A DNA stretch of 64,000 nucleotides, from positions 5,642,165-5,706,164 of the forward strand of contig NZ_AP028672.1 in NCBI RefSeq assembly GCF_041154505.1. The letters run 5' to 3'. Positions 2,221-47,680 of this stretch are shown here, piece after piece (position 1 is the first letter of the stretch; every line of letters starts with the position of its first letter). This DNA comes from Acidovorax sp. A79. Its GTDB lineage: Bacteria > Pseudomonadota > Gammaproteobacteria > Burkholderiales > Burkholderiaceae_C. The notes under the pieces are model-generated. The model worked only from the letters and a program-made list of their open reading frames with translations, did not search any database and was not told where the DNA came from. The position numbers and the translations under genes were made by a program.

Positions 2221-3168
2221 TCAAGGCCCGTCCTTGGGCAGTTCCGTGGAAACGATGTATCGCGGGCGGTACTTCACTTCGTCATAGATGCGTGCCAGGT
2301 ATTCGCCAATGATTCCCAGGCCCATCATCAGAAAACTGCCGATGATCAGCAGCAGCAGTATGACCGTGGTGAATCCGTCAACCGCCATTCCACTCAATTT
2401 CATGTAAACGGTGTGCATGCCCAGGAGCACAGAGAAACACAGAAATACCGCGCCGAAAATCGTGATCAGGTGCAGGGGGAAGGAGCTAAAACTGGTGACT
2501 GCCACGGCCGCAAGGCGGATCAATCCGAAGACGGACCAGCCGGAGTCTCCAGCGACCCGCGGTTCCACTTCGAAGGGAATCTGGATCGAGCGGAAGCCCA
2601 TCCAGCTCACCATGCCCCTGAAGAAAACGTTGCGCTCCTTCATGGTGAGATAGGCGTCGACAACTCGCCGGTCCAGCAGTTTGTAGTCTGAGGCACCCTT
2701 GAGGTCGTGGCCCGAGAACACCCTCAATATGAAGTAGAAGAGCTTGGCGCGTGCCGCAGACAGACGGGTTTCGTCGCCCCTGTTCGATTTGACGGCTTCC
2801 ACGATGTCGACCGTGCCGCTGCGCCATGTTTCGATCATCTGGGGCAGCAGGGAAGGGGGGTGCTGCATGTCTCCATCCATGATGACAACCGCCTTGCCCC
2901 TGGCGGCTTCCATTCCCGCGGAGACCGCGGCCTCCTTTCCAAAGTTGCGGCTCAGCTTCAGCGCCCTCAACTGCGGAATTTTCTGGGAGATGGCGCTGAG
3001 CTGGCCCCAGGTGTCATCGCGAGACCCGTCATCCACCACCACGATTTCCCAGGAAGATGCTGTCGCGCTGAGGAATCTATCCACTTCGTGCAGCGTGACG
3101 TGGATTCCCTTTTCTTCGCAGTAGACCGGGATGACGACGGAAATCTCTGGGTGCATAAACGTTCTCAT
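2221..3168 (-). CDS. gtrB: GtrB-like bactoprenol sugar transferase (GT2 family, DPM1-like)
   Basis: A 315-residue GT2 glycosyltransferase. The N-terminal domain opens with ISVVIPVYCEEKGI and carries VDDGSRDDT and MDGDMQHPP, the nucleotide-sugar and metal-binding DxD region of the DPM1/GtrB/ArnC branch. Two hydrophobic segments near residues 230-260 and 268-300 anchor it in the inner membrane, as in GtrB. The family moves a sugar from a nucleotide donor to undecaprenyl phosphate on the cytoplasmic face. It is the first gene of the minus-strand cassette; gtrA follows after about 170 bases. The start at 3168 could instead be the ATG at 3156, which gives the more family-like MHPEISVVIPV. Sugar specificity is not readable. 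Confidence 0.85.
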   Translation of the reverse strand: MRTFMHPEISVVIPVYCEEKGIHVTLHEVDRFLSATASSWEIVVVDDGSRDDTWGQLSAISQKIPQLRALKLSRNFGKEAAVSAGMEAARGKAVVIMDGDMQHPPSLLPQMIETWRSGTVDIVEAVKSNRGDETRLSAARAKLFYFILRVFSGHDLKGASDYKLLDRRVVDAYLTMKERNVFFRGMVSWMGFRSIQIPFEVEPRVAGDSGWSVFGLIRLAAVAVTSFSSFPLHLITIFGAVFLCFSVLLGMHTVYMKLSGMAVDGFTTVILLLLIIGSFLMMGLGIIGEYLARIYDEVKYRPRYIVSTELPKDGP

Positions 3169-3561
3169 AAGCCAATGGGCCCGTGGCGGCTGGTCTGCAG
3201 GGCGGGCGTGCGTTGCACGGGCTGAGCGCGCGGTCGTGTCCTGGCAAGAGCACTGGCGGCCCTTGCAGGCAAGTCAAGTCACGCGCCAATACACACGGGG
3301 CATCTTCGCCAGGCATCTGGGCGTGGTATCGCTGTCGTTTCGAGTGCTGCCTGCGCTCGCGCGCATTACTGTCTCACATTTTGGCGAGCCGCCAGGCATC
3401 ACGCGGTGTTTGCGAGAGCGGTGGCGTGTGTTTGCAACGCAACTGTGTGGCGCAAAAACCATTGAACCCCGGGTAAACGCCGGCACAAATGGAGGATCCA
3501 GGGCGGCAGGGGTAAAATGAAGGCAAATTCACTGCACAAGAGCGAGAAAGGCAATCTGGTT
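3169..3561. other. Intergenic region between gtrB-like gene and thrS leader
   Basis: Divergent control region of about 390 bases in which I find no credible gene. A TAAAAT at 3513-3518 is a possible -10 element for thrS, placing a transcript start near 3525, but no good -35 partner is evident. Confidence 0.4.
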
Positions 3562-3603
3562 ATGACACCGCGAACTACATCGGAGATGTTGACCGGCCGT
3601 TGA
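3562..3603 (+). CDS. Threonine-rich leader peptide of thrS
   Basis: A 13-codon frame, ATG at 3562 to TGA at 3601-3603, encodes MTPRTTSEMLTGR. Four of the thirteen codons are threonine (2, 5, 6 and 11), two of them adjacent. A purine-rich GAGAAAGG at 3544-3551 lies about ten bases before the ATG and could be its ribosome binding site. The frame ends 131 bases before thrS and immediately precedes alternative pairing segments and a terminator, the classic layout of an attenuation leader peptide. A ribosome stalled for lack of charged tRNA-Thr at codons 5-6 would cover 3569-3575. Function is inferred from this layout. Such leaders are well known for thrABC and, with phenylalanine, for pheST in enterobacteria. 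I do not know a described one for thrS in this group. Confidence 0.7.
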   Translation: MTPRTTSEMLTGR

Positions 3604-3680
3604 GGCTGGCTGTTCGCGCCTGCACGAGATTGCACACCTCCTCCAGAAAGCGCGGACCCGTTCCGCGCTTTTTTGTTTTT
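3569..3680 (+). promoter_or_regulatory. Candidate thrS transcription attenuator
   Basis: Four segments can pair alternatively. Segment 1 (3569-3575, CGCGAAC, inside the leader peptide) is the perfect complement of segment 2 (3612-3618, GTTCGCG). Segment 2 (3612-3619) also pairs over eight positions, one of them G-U, with segment 3 (3650-3657, GCGCGGAC). Segment 3 is the left arm of a perfect 9-bp terminator (3648-3656 with 3662-3670, loop 3657-3661) followed by a T-rich tract to 3680. A small hairpin, 3593-3598 with 3604-3609, lies inside the 1:2 structure. Stalling at the Thr codons would hide segment 1, allow 2:3 and prevent termination. Pairing was read by eye and no energies were computed. 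Confidence 0.65.
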
Positions 3681-3734
3681 GGGCCTGGCGCGTGCCCGCA
3701 CCCATTGCACTGATCGAAAAGAAAGAGTTATCCC

Positions 3735-5654
3735 ATGATTCACATCACGCTTCCCGACGGCTCGCAGCGCGAATTCCCGGGTCCGGTCACGGTGGCCGAA
3801 GTGGCCGCATCCATTGGTTCGGGCCTGGCCAAAGCCGCCCTGGCCGGCAAGATTGGCGACAAGGTGGTGGACACCAGCTACCAGATCACGGCCGACAGCC
3901 CGCTGGCGATCGTGACGGCCAAGGATGCCGATGGGCTGGAAGTCATCCGCCACTCCACGGCCCACTTGCTGGCCTATGCCGTCAAGGAATTGTTCCCCGA
4001 GGCGCAGGTGACCATCGGCCCGGTGATCGAAAACGGCTTCTTCTACGACTTCTCGTACAAGCGTCCTTTCACGCCTGAAGACCTGGTGGCCATCGAAAAG
4101 CGCATGGCCGAGTTGGCCGCCAAGGACGAGCCGGTGGTGCGGCGCGTGCTGCCGCGCGACGAAGCCGTGGCCTACTTCAAGGGCCTGGGTGAGCACTACA
4201 AGGCCGAGATCATTGCCAGCATCCCCAGCAATGAAGATGTGAGCCTGTACCGCGAAGGCAATTTCGAAGACCTGTGCCGTGGCCCCCACGTGCCCAGCAC
4301 GGGCAAGCTCAAGTTCTTCAAGCTCATGAAGGTGGCGGGCGCCTACTGGCGCGGCGACCACCGCAACGAGATGCTGCAGCGCATCTATGGCACGGCTTGG
4401 ACCTCCAAGGAGGAGCTGCAGCAATACCTCACGATGCTGGAAGAGGCCGAGAAGCGCGACCACCGCAAGCTTGGCCGCGAACTGGACCTGTTCCACATGG
4501 ACGAGCATTCGCCGGGCACGGTGTTCTGGCACCCCAAGGGCTGGGCGCTGTGGCAGGAGGTGGAGCAGTACATGCGCCGCGTGTACCGCAACAACGGCTA
4601 CCAGGAGGTCAAGGGGCCGCAGATCCTGGACAAGAGCCTGTGGGAGAAAACGGGCCACTGGGACAAGTACCGCGACAACATGTTCACCACCGAATCGGAA
4701 AAGCGCGAGTACGCGCTCAAGCCGATGAACTGCCCCGGCCACATCCTGATCTACAAGCAGGGCATCAAGAGCTACCGCGACCTGCCGCTGCGCTACGGCG
4801 AGTTCGGTGCCTGCCACCGCAACGAGCCCACGGGCGGCCTGCACGGCATCATGCGCGTGCGCGGCTTCACGCAGGACGACGGCCACATCTTCTGCACCGA
4901 AGAACAGGTGCTGGAAGAGTGCGCCAACTACACGGCGCTGGTGCAGAAGGTCTACAAGGACTTCGGCTTCACCGACATCATCTACAAGGTGGCCACGCGG
5001 CCCGAGGCGCGCATCGGTACCGATGAATCGTGGGACCGCGCTGAGAAGGCACTGATGGATGGTCTGCGCCATTCGGGCTGCGAGTTCGAGATCGCCGAAG
5101 GCGAGGGTGCCTTCTACGGGCCCAAGATCGAGTACACGCTCAAGGACGCGCTGGGCCGGCAATGGCAGTGCGGCACGATGCAGATCGACCCCAACCTGCC
5201 CGAGCGCCTGGATGCGGAATACGTGGCCGAAGACGGCAGCCGCAAGCGCCCGTTGATGCTGCACCGCGCCACGGTAGGCAGCATGGAGCGCTTCATCGGA
5301 ATGCTGATCGAGCACTATGCGGGCGCATTCCCGGTGTGGCTTGCGCCCGTGCAGGTTTCGGTGCTCAACATCACCGATGCGCAGGCCGATTACTGTCGCG
5401 AAATTGCTGCAAAGCTGCAAAAAGCGCTGCCGAATCAAGACCTTAGGGTGGCGGTCGATCTGCGCAATGAGAAGATTACGTATAAAATACGTGAGCATTC
5501 GTTGCAAAAGCTGCCATACATCCTCGTCGCGGGCGACAAGGAAAAGGCCGCAGGCGCCGTTGCAGTACGCGGCCGGGGCAATCGTGACCTCGGAGTGATG
5601 TCCATCGAAGCGTTCGCTGAGCTGATCGCCCAGGACATCGCCACCAAAGCCTGA
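3735..5654 (+). CDS. thrS: Threonyl-tRNA synthetase
   Basis: A 639-residue class II synthetase charging tRNA-Thr, close to the 642 of E. coli. It has an N-terminal TGS domain (about 1-62), the editing domain with HSTAHLL, the catalytic core with MNCPGH near residue 331 (zinc-ligand cysteine 333), [10 protein letters not shown] and LHRATVG (the other zinc-site histidines), and a C-terminal anticodon-binding domain ending near 639. The start at 3735 follows a modest AAAGAG ribosome site. It is first in the thrS-infC-rpmI-rplT-pheS-pheT-ihfA order conserved in proteobacteria. In E. coli ThrRS represses its own translation through a tRNA-like operator. Here the leader instead shows a transcription-attenuator layout with a Thr-rich peptide, so control may have switched mechanism. 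Confidence 0.97.
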
Positions 5655-5740: not shown

Positions 5741-6343
5741 ATCGCTACTGAATTTCGTGATCGTCGCCACCGTGAAGAGCGCAAGCACCGCCTGAACCGT
5801 GAAATCATGGCCCCGGAAGTCCGTCTGTCCGGGCCAGAGAATGAGCCTTTGGGCGTGGTCAGCCTCATGGAAGCCCTGCGCATGGCAGGCGAGCTGGATG
5901 TGGATCTGGTGGAAATCGCTGCCACAGCGAACCCACCGGTGTGCCGCCTGATGGACTACGGCAAGTTCAAGTACCAGGAGCAAAAGCGCGCTGCGGAGGC
6001 GAAGGCCAAGCAGACGGTGATCGAGATCAAGGAAGTCAAATTCCGTCCGGGCACGGACGATGGCGACTACAACATCAAGATGCGCAACATCCGCCGCTTC
6101 CTGGCCGATGGTGACAAGTGCAAGATCACGCTGCGTTTCCGCGGCCGTGAAATCACCCACCAGGAACTGGGTCTGGCGCTGCTCAACCGCATTCGCGATG
6201 AGCTGGCCGATTCCATCATCATCGAGCAGTTTCCCAAGCTGGAAGGCCGCCAGATGATCATGATGATCGCGCCGGGCAAGAAGAAGCCTGCTGCAGCCAA
6301 GCCGGCAGCCGCTGAAAGCACGCCTTCGGGCAGTGCGGCCTGA
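5741..6343 (+). CDS. infC: Translation initiation factor IF-3, AUC start codon
   Basis: IF-3 binds the 30S subunit and checks initiator tRNA and start codon. The first in-frame ATG is at 5807, but homology runs upstream through [21 protein letters not shown], a typical betaproteobacterial N-terminus. That segment starts at an ATC codon (5741) preceded by GAAGGAAG at 5727-5734. Read from there the protein is 200 residues. Rare AUU/AUC/AUA starts are the known device by which IF-3 represses its own synthesis, so this start is very likely real and autoregulatory. The rest has the IF-3 N domain (about 20-90) and C domain with [10 protein letters not shown], plus an Ala/Pro/Lys-rich tail of about 20 residues. 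It lies 86 bases after thrS. Confidence 0.93.
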
Positions 6344-6756: not shown

Positions 6757-7116
6757 ATGCCTCGCGTCAAACGTGGTGTAACGGCCCGTGCCCGTCACAA
6801 GAAAGTTCTCGCCCTCGCCAAGGGCTTCCGTGGTCGCCGCGGTAACGTCTTCCGCATCGCCAAACAGGCGGTAATGAAGGCTGGGCAATATGCCTACCGT
6901 GACCGCCGCACCAAGAAGCGCGTGTTCCGCCAGCTGTGGATCGCCCGTATCAACGCCGCTGCCCGTGAACTGGGCCTGACCTACAGCCAGTTCGCCAACG
7001 GCCTGAAGAAGGCATCCATCGAGATCGACCGCAAGATGCTGGCCGACCTCGCAGTGCACGACAAGGCTGCCTTTGGCAGCATCGTGGAGCAAGTCAAGGC
7101 TAAGCTGGCTGCTTGA
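6757..7116 (+). CDS. rplT: 50S ribosomal protein L20
   Basis: A 119-residue basic protein beginning [18 protein letters not shown], the standard L20 start, with [17 protein letters not shown] and the [12 protein letters not shown] segment of the family. L20 binds 23S rRNA early in 50S assembly and in E. coli represses its own operon by binding the rpmI leader. An AAGGAGT ribosome site precedes the ATG. Length matches the usual 117-119 residues. It follows rpmI closely and is separated from pheS by about 100 bases that hold a strong inverted repeat. Confidence 0.97.
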
Positions 7117-7130
7117 GTTCACGATGGGTG

Positions 7131-7200
7131 GCTATCTTTTTGATAGCTGCTTGCGCAATAACAGCAAGGGCTAGGGCTTGAAAAGGCGCTAGCCCTTGTT
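7131..7200 (+). repeat. Dispersed palindromic repeat copy with terminator-like stem, before pheS
   Basis: GCTATC (7131-7136) and GATAGC (7142-7147) flank five Ts, followed by a perfect 10-bp inverted repeat, 7165-7174 with 7189-7198, then TTCATTTTC. The ATAGCTGCTTGCGC core is shared with copies near 26920, 49591 and 58107, so this is a member of the short dispersed repeat family. Its second stem could slow or end transcription between rplT and pheS. Confidence 0.6.
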
Positions 7201-7217
7201 CATTTTCAAGAGTCGAT

Positions 7218-46993: not shown

Positions 46994-47069
<76 letters not shown>

Positions 47070-47099
47070 AGGTTTGTTATCGGTTAGTTCCAAGGTTTT

Positions 47100-47175
47100 G
47101 ACCCTATCGTCTAGAGGCCTAGGACATCACCCTTTCACGGTGAGTACCGGGGTTCGAATCCCCGTAGGGTCGCCA
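47100..47175 (+). tRNA. tRNA-Glu (TTC anticodon), copy 1
   Basis: 76 bases, discriminator G and CCA encoded. The loop CTTTCAC gives TTC; acceptor GACCCTA pairs with TAGGGTC. Confidence 0.97.
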
Positions 47176-47228
47176 AGTTGTAGCGCTTGGCTTGTGTTGA
47201 TGAAATGCAAGCGAAAAGCTGCCTGCCA

Positions 47229-47305
47229 GGAGTGGTAGTTCAGTTGGTTAGAATACCGGCCTGTCACGCCGGGGGTCGCGGGTTCGAGTCCCGTCCACTC
47301 CGCCA
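47229..47305 (+). tRNA. tRNA-Asp (GTC anticodon), copy 1
   Basis: 77 bases, discriminator G and CCA encoded. The loop CTGTCAC gives GTC; acceptor GGAGTGG pairs with CCACTCC. Confidence 0.97.
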
Positions 47306-47308
47306 GTC

Positions 47309-47345
47309 AAAAACCCTTGCAGGTCTTTGATATGCAAGGGTTTTT
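47309..47345 (+). terminator. Terminator between the two tRNA clusters
   Basis: A 13-bp inverted repeat, 47309-47321 with 47333-47345, ending in a T run. The second cluster therefore needs its own promoter or read-through. Confidence 0.9.
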
Positions 47346-47369
47346 CTTTGGTGTCATCCAGAGAATCGT

Positions 47370-47445
<76 letters not shown>

Positions 47446-47475
47446 AGGTTTGTTATCGGTTAGTTCCAAGGTTTT

Positions 47476-47551
47476 GACCCTATCGTCTAGAGGCCTAGGA
47501 CATCACCCTTTCACGGTGAGTACCGGGGTTCGAATCCCCGTAGGGTCGCCA
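47476..47551 (+). tRNA. tRNA-Glu (TTC anticodon), copy 2
   Basis: Identical in sequence to copy 1, 376 bases downstream. Confidence 0.97.
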
Positions 47552-47603
47552 AGTTGTAGCGCTTGGCTTGTATTGAGAGATGCAAGCGAAAAGCTGCCTG
47601 CCA

Positions 47604-47680
47604 GGAGTGGTAGTTCAGTTGGTTAGAATACCGGCCTGTCACGCCGGGGGTCGCGGGTTCGAGTCCCGTCCACTCCGCCA
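47604..47680 (+). tRNA. tRNA-Asp (GTC anticodon), copy 2
   Basis: Identical in sequence to copy 1, 375 bases downstream. Confidence 0.97.

Follow-up and report, generated by a model that had tools for sequence, protein, structure and literature searches.

The trpL, hisL and thrL leaders of Escherichia coli combine a short open reading frame (ORF) rich in the regulatory codon with a terminator and a mutually exclusive antiterminator, and the leader stop codon adjoins segment 2. In the E. coli pheST operon, with its pheM leader, synthetase genes are attenuated in response to their own amino acid. T-box leaders, which precede synthetase genes in Gram-positive organisms, attenuate transcription according to tRNA charging and sense the tRNA directly. 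To our knowledge, the E. coli thrS operator has neither a leader peptide nor a terminator. The leader of the E. coli thr operon contains eight ACC codons, according to the available text of PMC1183508. In Streptomyces lividans, a putative thrL-thrS leader peptide with two Thr in 18 residues has been proposed (PMC8079986, available text), and this proposal predates ours as far as the general idea of a thrS leader is concerned. The open-access literature yielded no description of a thrS attenuator in the Burkholderiales; the supplementary candidate tables of PMC2965389, which lay outside this search, could list such leaders, and the available portion of that article mentions ThrRS only as an E. 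coli example.

Here we analyze the region preceding thrS in the window, the whole 64,000-nucleotide stretch of Acidovorax sp. A79 DNA that was studied. Comparison with related sequences indicates that the leader found there is very probably a classical ribosome-mediated transcription attenuator, which would make thrS transcription dependent on the charging of Thr-tRNA.

The thrS leader in the window

The features of the locus are collected in Table 1, in which pairing percentages refer to A2, our alignment of the own family (70 sequences picked, 66 with coordinates, 54 aligned). Direct reading of the sequence places the leader ORF, MTPRTTSEMLTGR, between ATG 3562 and TGA 3601-3603, with the Thr codons ACA (codon 2), ACT (5), ACA (6) and ACC (11), which bears out the 13-codon Thr-rich frame upstream of thrS that the first-pass annotation had reported at 3562-3603. 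An in-frame ATG at 3517 would lengthen the ORF to 28 codons. This longer frame was rejected because several members of the genus have no ATG there, and the start at 3562 is further preferred because the TAAAAT box (3513-3518) lies at a nearly constant distance from it, 48-57 nt upstream in 41 of 42 genus leaders and exactly 49 nt in 32. The conserved -10-like box makes a transcript start upstream of the leader probable; a two-hexamer scan of the window locus found no promoter-like site either 5' or 3' of the terminator. Across the genus, the stretch 5' of the leader ATG (GAGCGAGAAAGGCA) hardly varies, and it is also frequent in the own family; this degree of conservation surpasses the needs of an attenuation mechanism and is more than pairing explains.

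Table 1. Positions of the thrS leader, its predicted control elements and neighboring genes
Feature	Position	Strand	Remarks
Glycosyltransferase-like gene	2221-3168	minus	under curated cut-offs
TAAAAT, -10-like box, probable leader promoter	3513-3518	plus	predicted transcript start about 3525
GAAAGG, putative ribosome-binding site of leader ORF	3546-3551	plus	inside nearly invariant stretch of alignment A1
Thr-rich leader ORF	3562-3603	plus	stop included; start, Thr codons and stop conserved
Segment 1, pairs with segment 2	3569-3575	plus	CGCGAAC
Small hairpin CCGGCC/GGCTGG, leader stop codon in loop	3593-3609	plus	75% of A2 cells paired
Segment 2, partner of 1 or of 3	3612-3619	plus	2:3 paired in 94.8% of A2 cells
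Intrinsic terminator with T tail	3645-3680	plus	pattern scan
Segment 3, terminator 5' arm and partner of segment 2	3648-3657	plus	direct reading, terminator scan, A2 pairing counts
Segment 4, terminator 3' arm	3662-3670	plus	3:4 paired in 93.5% of A2 cells
thrS, threonine--tRNA ligase, predicted regulated gene	3735-5654	plus	TIGR00418, 722 bits
infC, next co-directional gene	5741-6343	plus	TIGR00168 on 5807-6340; probable ATC start at 5741 by eye

Three overlapping complementarities and a perfect terminator had been described for this leader, and all of them are present. CGCGAAC (3569-3575) pairs perfectly with GTTCGCG (3612-3618), GTTCGCGC (3612-3619) forms eight pairs, one of them G-U, with GCGCGGAC (3650-3657), and AAGCGCGGA (3648-3656) pairs perfectly with TCCGCGCTT (3662-3670), next to which lies a T-rich tail. 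The hairpin at the leader stop codon, in which 3593-3598 pairs with 3604-3609, was absent from the earlier description. The folded leader of the window has a z of -3.8. Scanning positions 3000-4200 on both strands for terminators gave a single match, and with 1.3 expected in shuffled sequences the scan alone is no proof.

At gathering scores, Rfam matched only tRNAs in the whole window and no T-box; within 3450-3760 it gave three weak matches (E 0.052 to 4.1), all far under the gathering scores and none of them a T-box. Plasmid records had no similarity to the leader, and the leader RNA model matched the own genome only once, with no second leader copy. At 46994-47680, the window contains a cluster of tRNA-Ala, -Glu and -Asp twice in tandem, about 376 nt apart.

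The genes of the thrS-infC-rpmI-rplT-pheST-ihfA run are co-directional, and a simple terminator scan of the gaps from thrS to ihfA found no terminator on that strand. It is only plausible that the switch governs the whole run, which may have internal promoters, since even the promoter of the leader escapes the scan used. Were the downstream genes co-transcribed, synthesis of IF3 and L35/L20 would be coupled to threonine charging. In the gap between rplT and pheS (7116-7217), two strong hairpins stand one after the other (-43.5 kcal/mol, z -5.4). A short T-rich stretch follows the second hairpin, which could be a further control point before pheST. By eye, infC appears to start with ATC (5741-5743), a rare start codon; E. 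coli infC likewise has a rare start codon, AUU.

Occurrence and coding signature of the leader

Our genus set comprised 47 genomes, 43 of them with a full-length thrS (G007, G031, G035 and G041 were excluded for lack of it). MTPRTT and the hairpin occur in 42 of the 43 thrS upstream regions, and these are the genus leaders (n = 42; four identical ones were merged). Thr 2, 5 and 6 are kept in 42 of the 43 loci, the later codons being variable; one leader (L036) lacks Thr 11. In the sole exception, L022, core and terminator are both missing from the 700 nt 5' of thrS, and an open frame of about 200 codons lies between an apparent leader remnant and thrS (3300-4200, minus strand of that locus). 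We regard L022 as a natural loss of the attenuator. The first-pass annotation had named two signs to be sought in relatives, of which conservation of the Thr codons was found, as at codons 2, 5 and 6 in the genus, but covariation was weak. The pattern that it named as speaking against an attenuator, loss of the Thr codons or of the alternative pairing with the terminator kept, was not encountered; L022 has lost the terminator as well as the core, and the folding switch persists across the order.

Among 300 genomes of the order, an RNA model of the genus leaders matched in 44, all nine from the own family being among them. The model search made no use of thrS, and yet 27 of the 30 best loci are situated before this gene, the window's own included; L067, L070 and L073 are not. 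The core pattern GGTTATGASACCGCNRACT is present at at least 119 loci in public genomes. Among those listed, 117 precede thrS by tblastn, with the thrS start 124-310 nt past the match start; L131 is under the tblastn threshold, with thrS beginning near the fragment end by eye, and the fragment carrying L134 ends 47 nt past the match start. Named holders among the matches listed are Comamonas, Delftia, Variovorax, Polaromonas, Rhodoferax, Hydrogenophaga, Roseateles, Massilia, Janthinobacterium, Herbaspirillum and Cupriavidus. The core pattern fixes codons 1-5 save for a few letters, so that in A2 and the core set the fixed letters are conserved by construction, whereas the genus and order sets were found via thrS or the RNA model and not via the pattern. 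In a class-wide survey of 369 genomes, the core pattern occurred in only three, all of the own family. Four leaders (L058, L061, L063 and L065) have MVMTPLTT and no obvious ribosome-binding site 5' of the ATG; their translation may rely on a processed or leaderless end.

For the order as a whole, 69 loci were chosen by family, among the higher-scoring places listed, from 293 genomes with thrS. With the ORF picked by eye and the terminator by script, a leader was called in 43 of the 69 loci, representing 17 of 28 families; L225 and L229 have a visible leader and yet were counted as having none called, since the terminator scan missed them. Diverged leader peptides unlike the core, some of them Thr-rich in quite another way, include MNTNTTRTTTTRHT (L228), MFRTTTTTGK (L237), MFRTRTTTQSC (L235), MSFRTTTTGSLNLA (L253), MFKRTTTTRISR (L263) and MPRTRTTTGVFSRRG (L232). 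An amino-acid enrichment test served as a control free of picking by eye. Short ORFs were enriched in Thr at 12 of the 69 loci, from 7 of the 28 families (0.00 in shuffles), in Tyr at one and in each of the other 18 amino acids at none. Before thrS in other orders of the class, a Thr-enriched short ORF (P<1e-3) was found in 0 of 29 loci. All 206 leaders have a stop, and in 199 of them it is followed by a terminator. Judging from these comparisons, many families of the order retain the logic of attenuation in spite of differing sequences.

The leader frame is closed by a stop before the terminator in all 178 distinct core leaders and the other frames in 55 and 40, a result that is partly by construction, as the terminator was sought 3' of the stop. 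The search pattern does not extend to codon 6; 115 of 148 distinct core ORFs encode Thr there, using each of the four Thr codons, and Thr accounts for 170 of 1128 codons from codon 7 onward, in counts that are not independent because the sequences are related. Out of frame, the core leaders have Thr in 19 of 980 (1.9%) and 28 of 980 (2.9%) triplets, and past the stop in 69 of 1924 (3.6%). The number of Thr codons is four in 95 of 199 leaders, more than four in 46, three in 36 and two in 20; a single Thr codon is found in L233 and L252.

Alternative pairing and computed switching

Our first, cruder folding measure, the fraction of the terminator 5' arm that is paired, revealed little difference (above 0.4 at 25 of 199 loci, where 12.7 were expected, and at none of the 40 genus loci), and opening energies were used instead. 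Switching was measured as the free energy required to open the terminator 5' arm before the 3' arm exists, with a ribosome placed on the leader. At an assumed ribosome edge of +16, the mean opening cost is 8.7 kcal/mol with the ribosome at the core Thr codon and 3.8 at the stop, as against 6.3 and 5.7 kcal/mol, respectively, with shuffled spacers. The difference between stall and stop is at least 3 kcal/mol at 146 of 199 loci (35.0 expected) with this edge and at 110 of 199 (34.7 expected) with an edge of +13, so that the energy result depends on the edge and 53 to 89 of the 199 loci fall under 3 kcal/mol. Of the 40 loci that belong to none of the genus, own-family and named sets, 28 show the difference at edge +16 vs 8.4 expected.

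In the profile of the window leader (edge +15), the opening cost is highest at codons 4-6 (12.5-12.8 kcal/mol) and 11-12 (11.7-12.8), among them Thr 5, 6 and 11, and lowest at codons 8-9 (6.3-6.7) and the stop (6.6); with no ribosome it is 6.7. A stall at Thr 2 gives only 8.4, and the non-Thr codons 4 and 12 are as favorable as codons 5-6. The best partner of the 5' arm starts 0-20 nt past the leader stop in 36 of 38 genus leaders, 119 of 140 other core leaders and 12 of 18 other leaders (16.2, 58.0 and 8.0 in shuffles), which puts segment 2 in the position needed for masking by a ribosome at the stop. At equilibrium the complete terminator prevails at every ribosome position (P about 0.85-0.91), and the switch must therefore be kinetic.

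For 2:3, 25 of 38 genus leaders, 55 of 140 core leaders and 7 of 18 others have a pairing stronger than in shuffled sequences (P<=0.05). For 1:2, the energies are -15.4 vs -16.0 kcal/mol with shuffled spacers in the genus and -14.6 vs -14.6 kcal/mol in the core set, exceeding the shuffles at P<=0.05 in 0 of 38 genus and 9 of 140 core leaders; in the diverged leaders, 10 of 18 are above shuffles. In A2, 89.1% of the 1:2 cells are paired and its two A-U pairs are broken in 18 and 17 of the 54 relatives. These changes are never compensated, and no covariation of 1:2 was found in A2, where it is hardly possible because the search pattern dictates segment 1 in most rows. Conserved, but no stronger than its shuffles in the genus and core sets, the 1:2 pairing is a putative arm of the attenuator. 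In the terminator, three pairs of A2 have changed on both sides, a number reached by 3 of 500 shuffles; only the terminator has covariation beyond shuffles, and one slid control equals its score. The stop-codon hairpin has changes on both sides in 4 of its 6 pairs in A2, which is not above shuffles. Covariation was dropped as the main proof, being too weak.

As far as sequence analysis can tell, the arrangement of the leader is more than chance, on the strength of the folding z, the genus and core counts, the Thr enrichment, the switching and the frame tests. The 1:2 / 2:3 / 3:4 attenuator suggested by the first-pass annotation gains support, apart from its 1:2 arm, from the retention of Thr codons and from the folding switch across the order.

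Proposed mechanism, alternatives and known systems

The leader has a short ORF rich in the regulatory codon, with translation predicted from the coding signature and the Thr enrichment, and the regulatory amino acid fits the downstream gene, a Thr leader preceding threonine--tRNA ligase. An intrinsic terminator lies between the leader ORF and thrS. By computation, the 2:3 antiterminator excludes this terminator, and a stall frees segment 2 whereas a ribosome at the stop masks it (at best in 146 of 199 loci). We propose that RNA polymerase would start at about 3525 and transcribe the leader and that, as the coding signature suggests, a ribosome would translate MTPRTTSEMLTGR. When Thr-tRNA is scarce, the ribosome would stall at Thr codons 5-6 (or 11) and cover segment 1; segments 2 and 3 would then pair, as folding favors, blocking the terminator and allowing transcription of thrS. 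When Thr-tRNA is plentiful, the ribosome would reach the stop codon at 3601 and cover the start of segment 2, 3:4 pairing would be favored in the folding, and transcription would end near 3680. Without translation, 1:2 would form and termination might again prevail, this being the weakest step.

The hairpin could instead merely end an upstream unit, tRNA-Val in many relatives, with the thrS promoter downstream and the ORF incidental. Of the 69 order loci, 40 have a tRNA-Val gene on the same strand no more than 420 nt 5' of thrS; 15 of the 40 have no called leader, and in L203, L204, L254, L264 and further order loci tRNA-Val(GAC), terminator and thrS follow in direct succession with no leader ORF by eye. 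However, no upstream tRNA was found at the window locus, nor in the own-family loci sampled (9 and 8 loci in two samples), and the glycosyltransferase-like gene upstream in the window is on the other strand, so the terminator at 3645-3680 cannot end that gene. A plain terminator would not predict the frame-specific Thr enrichment, the closed frame or the switching geometry, and the scan gave no promoter-like site 3' of the terminator, though none 5' of it either. We consider this explanation very unlikely. The terminator of the tRNA-Val unit may well be the evolutionary origin of the leader terminator. A leader was called in 25 of the 40 loci with an upstream tRNA-Val, the tRNA often being directly before the leader, and we infer that the leader arose in the interval from tRNA-Val to thrS, the own family having later exchanged the tRNA promoter for one with the TAAAAT box. 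Upstream of thrS in other orders of the class, tRNA-like 3' ends, a simple motif, also recur.

Another explanation is that ThrRS or a different protein binds the conserved leader RNA directly, the peptide being secondary. Such control would resemble that of E. coli thrS, which in the available text of PMC3858243 is repressed by ThrRS bound to a hairpin at the ribosome-binding site, and it would fit the near invariance of GAGCGAGAAAGGCA in the genus. In other families, however, the RNA sequence has been replaced and the Thr richness, the terminator and the switching have been retained, and the leader Thr codons vary synonymously, so that we find direct binding highly improbable. It is scarcely credible that the terminated leader RNA or peptide acts mainly in trans, as a small RNA or small protein, with thrS control not its main role: the 5' part of the leader is highly conserved and another leader peptide, peTrpL, is reported to act in trans (PMC7298713, available text), but this leader sits before thrS and its amino acid matches the downstream enzyme.

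We thus return to an attenuator of thrS as the preferred reading. For the Burkholderiales (betaproteobacteria), it offers a testable answer to how threonyl-tRNA synthetase tracks demand, unlike the repression by the enzyme in E. coli, and the diverged leaders are natural material on the evolution of attenuators, apparently between a tRNA gene and thrS. The Arg-Thr (CGA-ACT) core recurs in families whose other codons have turned over. A wider and rather doubtful suggestion is that the leader does more than count Thr, that this core and the nearly invariant initiation region form a tuned stalling or RNA-binding element and that, in the many relatives with an upstream tRNA-Val, the switch governs whether the tRNA transcript continues into the thrS-infC-ribosomal-protein mRNA. 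If true, a single transcript would tie together tRNA output, tRNA charging and ribosome synthesis.

The thrS leader shares its general anatomy with the trpL, hisL and thrL attenuators of E. coli, but it precedes a synthetase and translation genes and not a biosynthetic operon. As with pheM and pheST, a synthetase gene is predicted to be attenuated by its own amino acid, although the amino acid and the gene are different and the leader is upstream of the entire thrS-infC run, not inside it. Like the T-box leaders, it is predicted to attenuate the transcription of a synthetase gene according to tRNA charging; unlike them, the proposed mechanism has no direct sensing of tRNA, and the window has no T-box match. 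The window leader has four Thr codons, in contrast to the eight ACC codons of the E. coli thr operon leader (PMC1183508, available text). The E. coli thrS operator acts on the same gene, but by translational repression through ThrRS, as the available text of PMC3858243 describes. The S. lividans thrL-thrS proposal likewise has a Thr-containing leader peptide before thrS; in the available text of PMC8079986 it concerns a leaderless transcript of an actinobacterium with an unrelated peptide and no clear terminator, whereas the leader described here has a terminator, alternative pairing and an occurrence through much of the order. The kind of switch is classical, and what is new in this probable attenuator is its target gene and the breadth of its occurrence.
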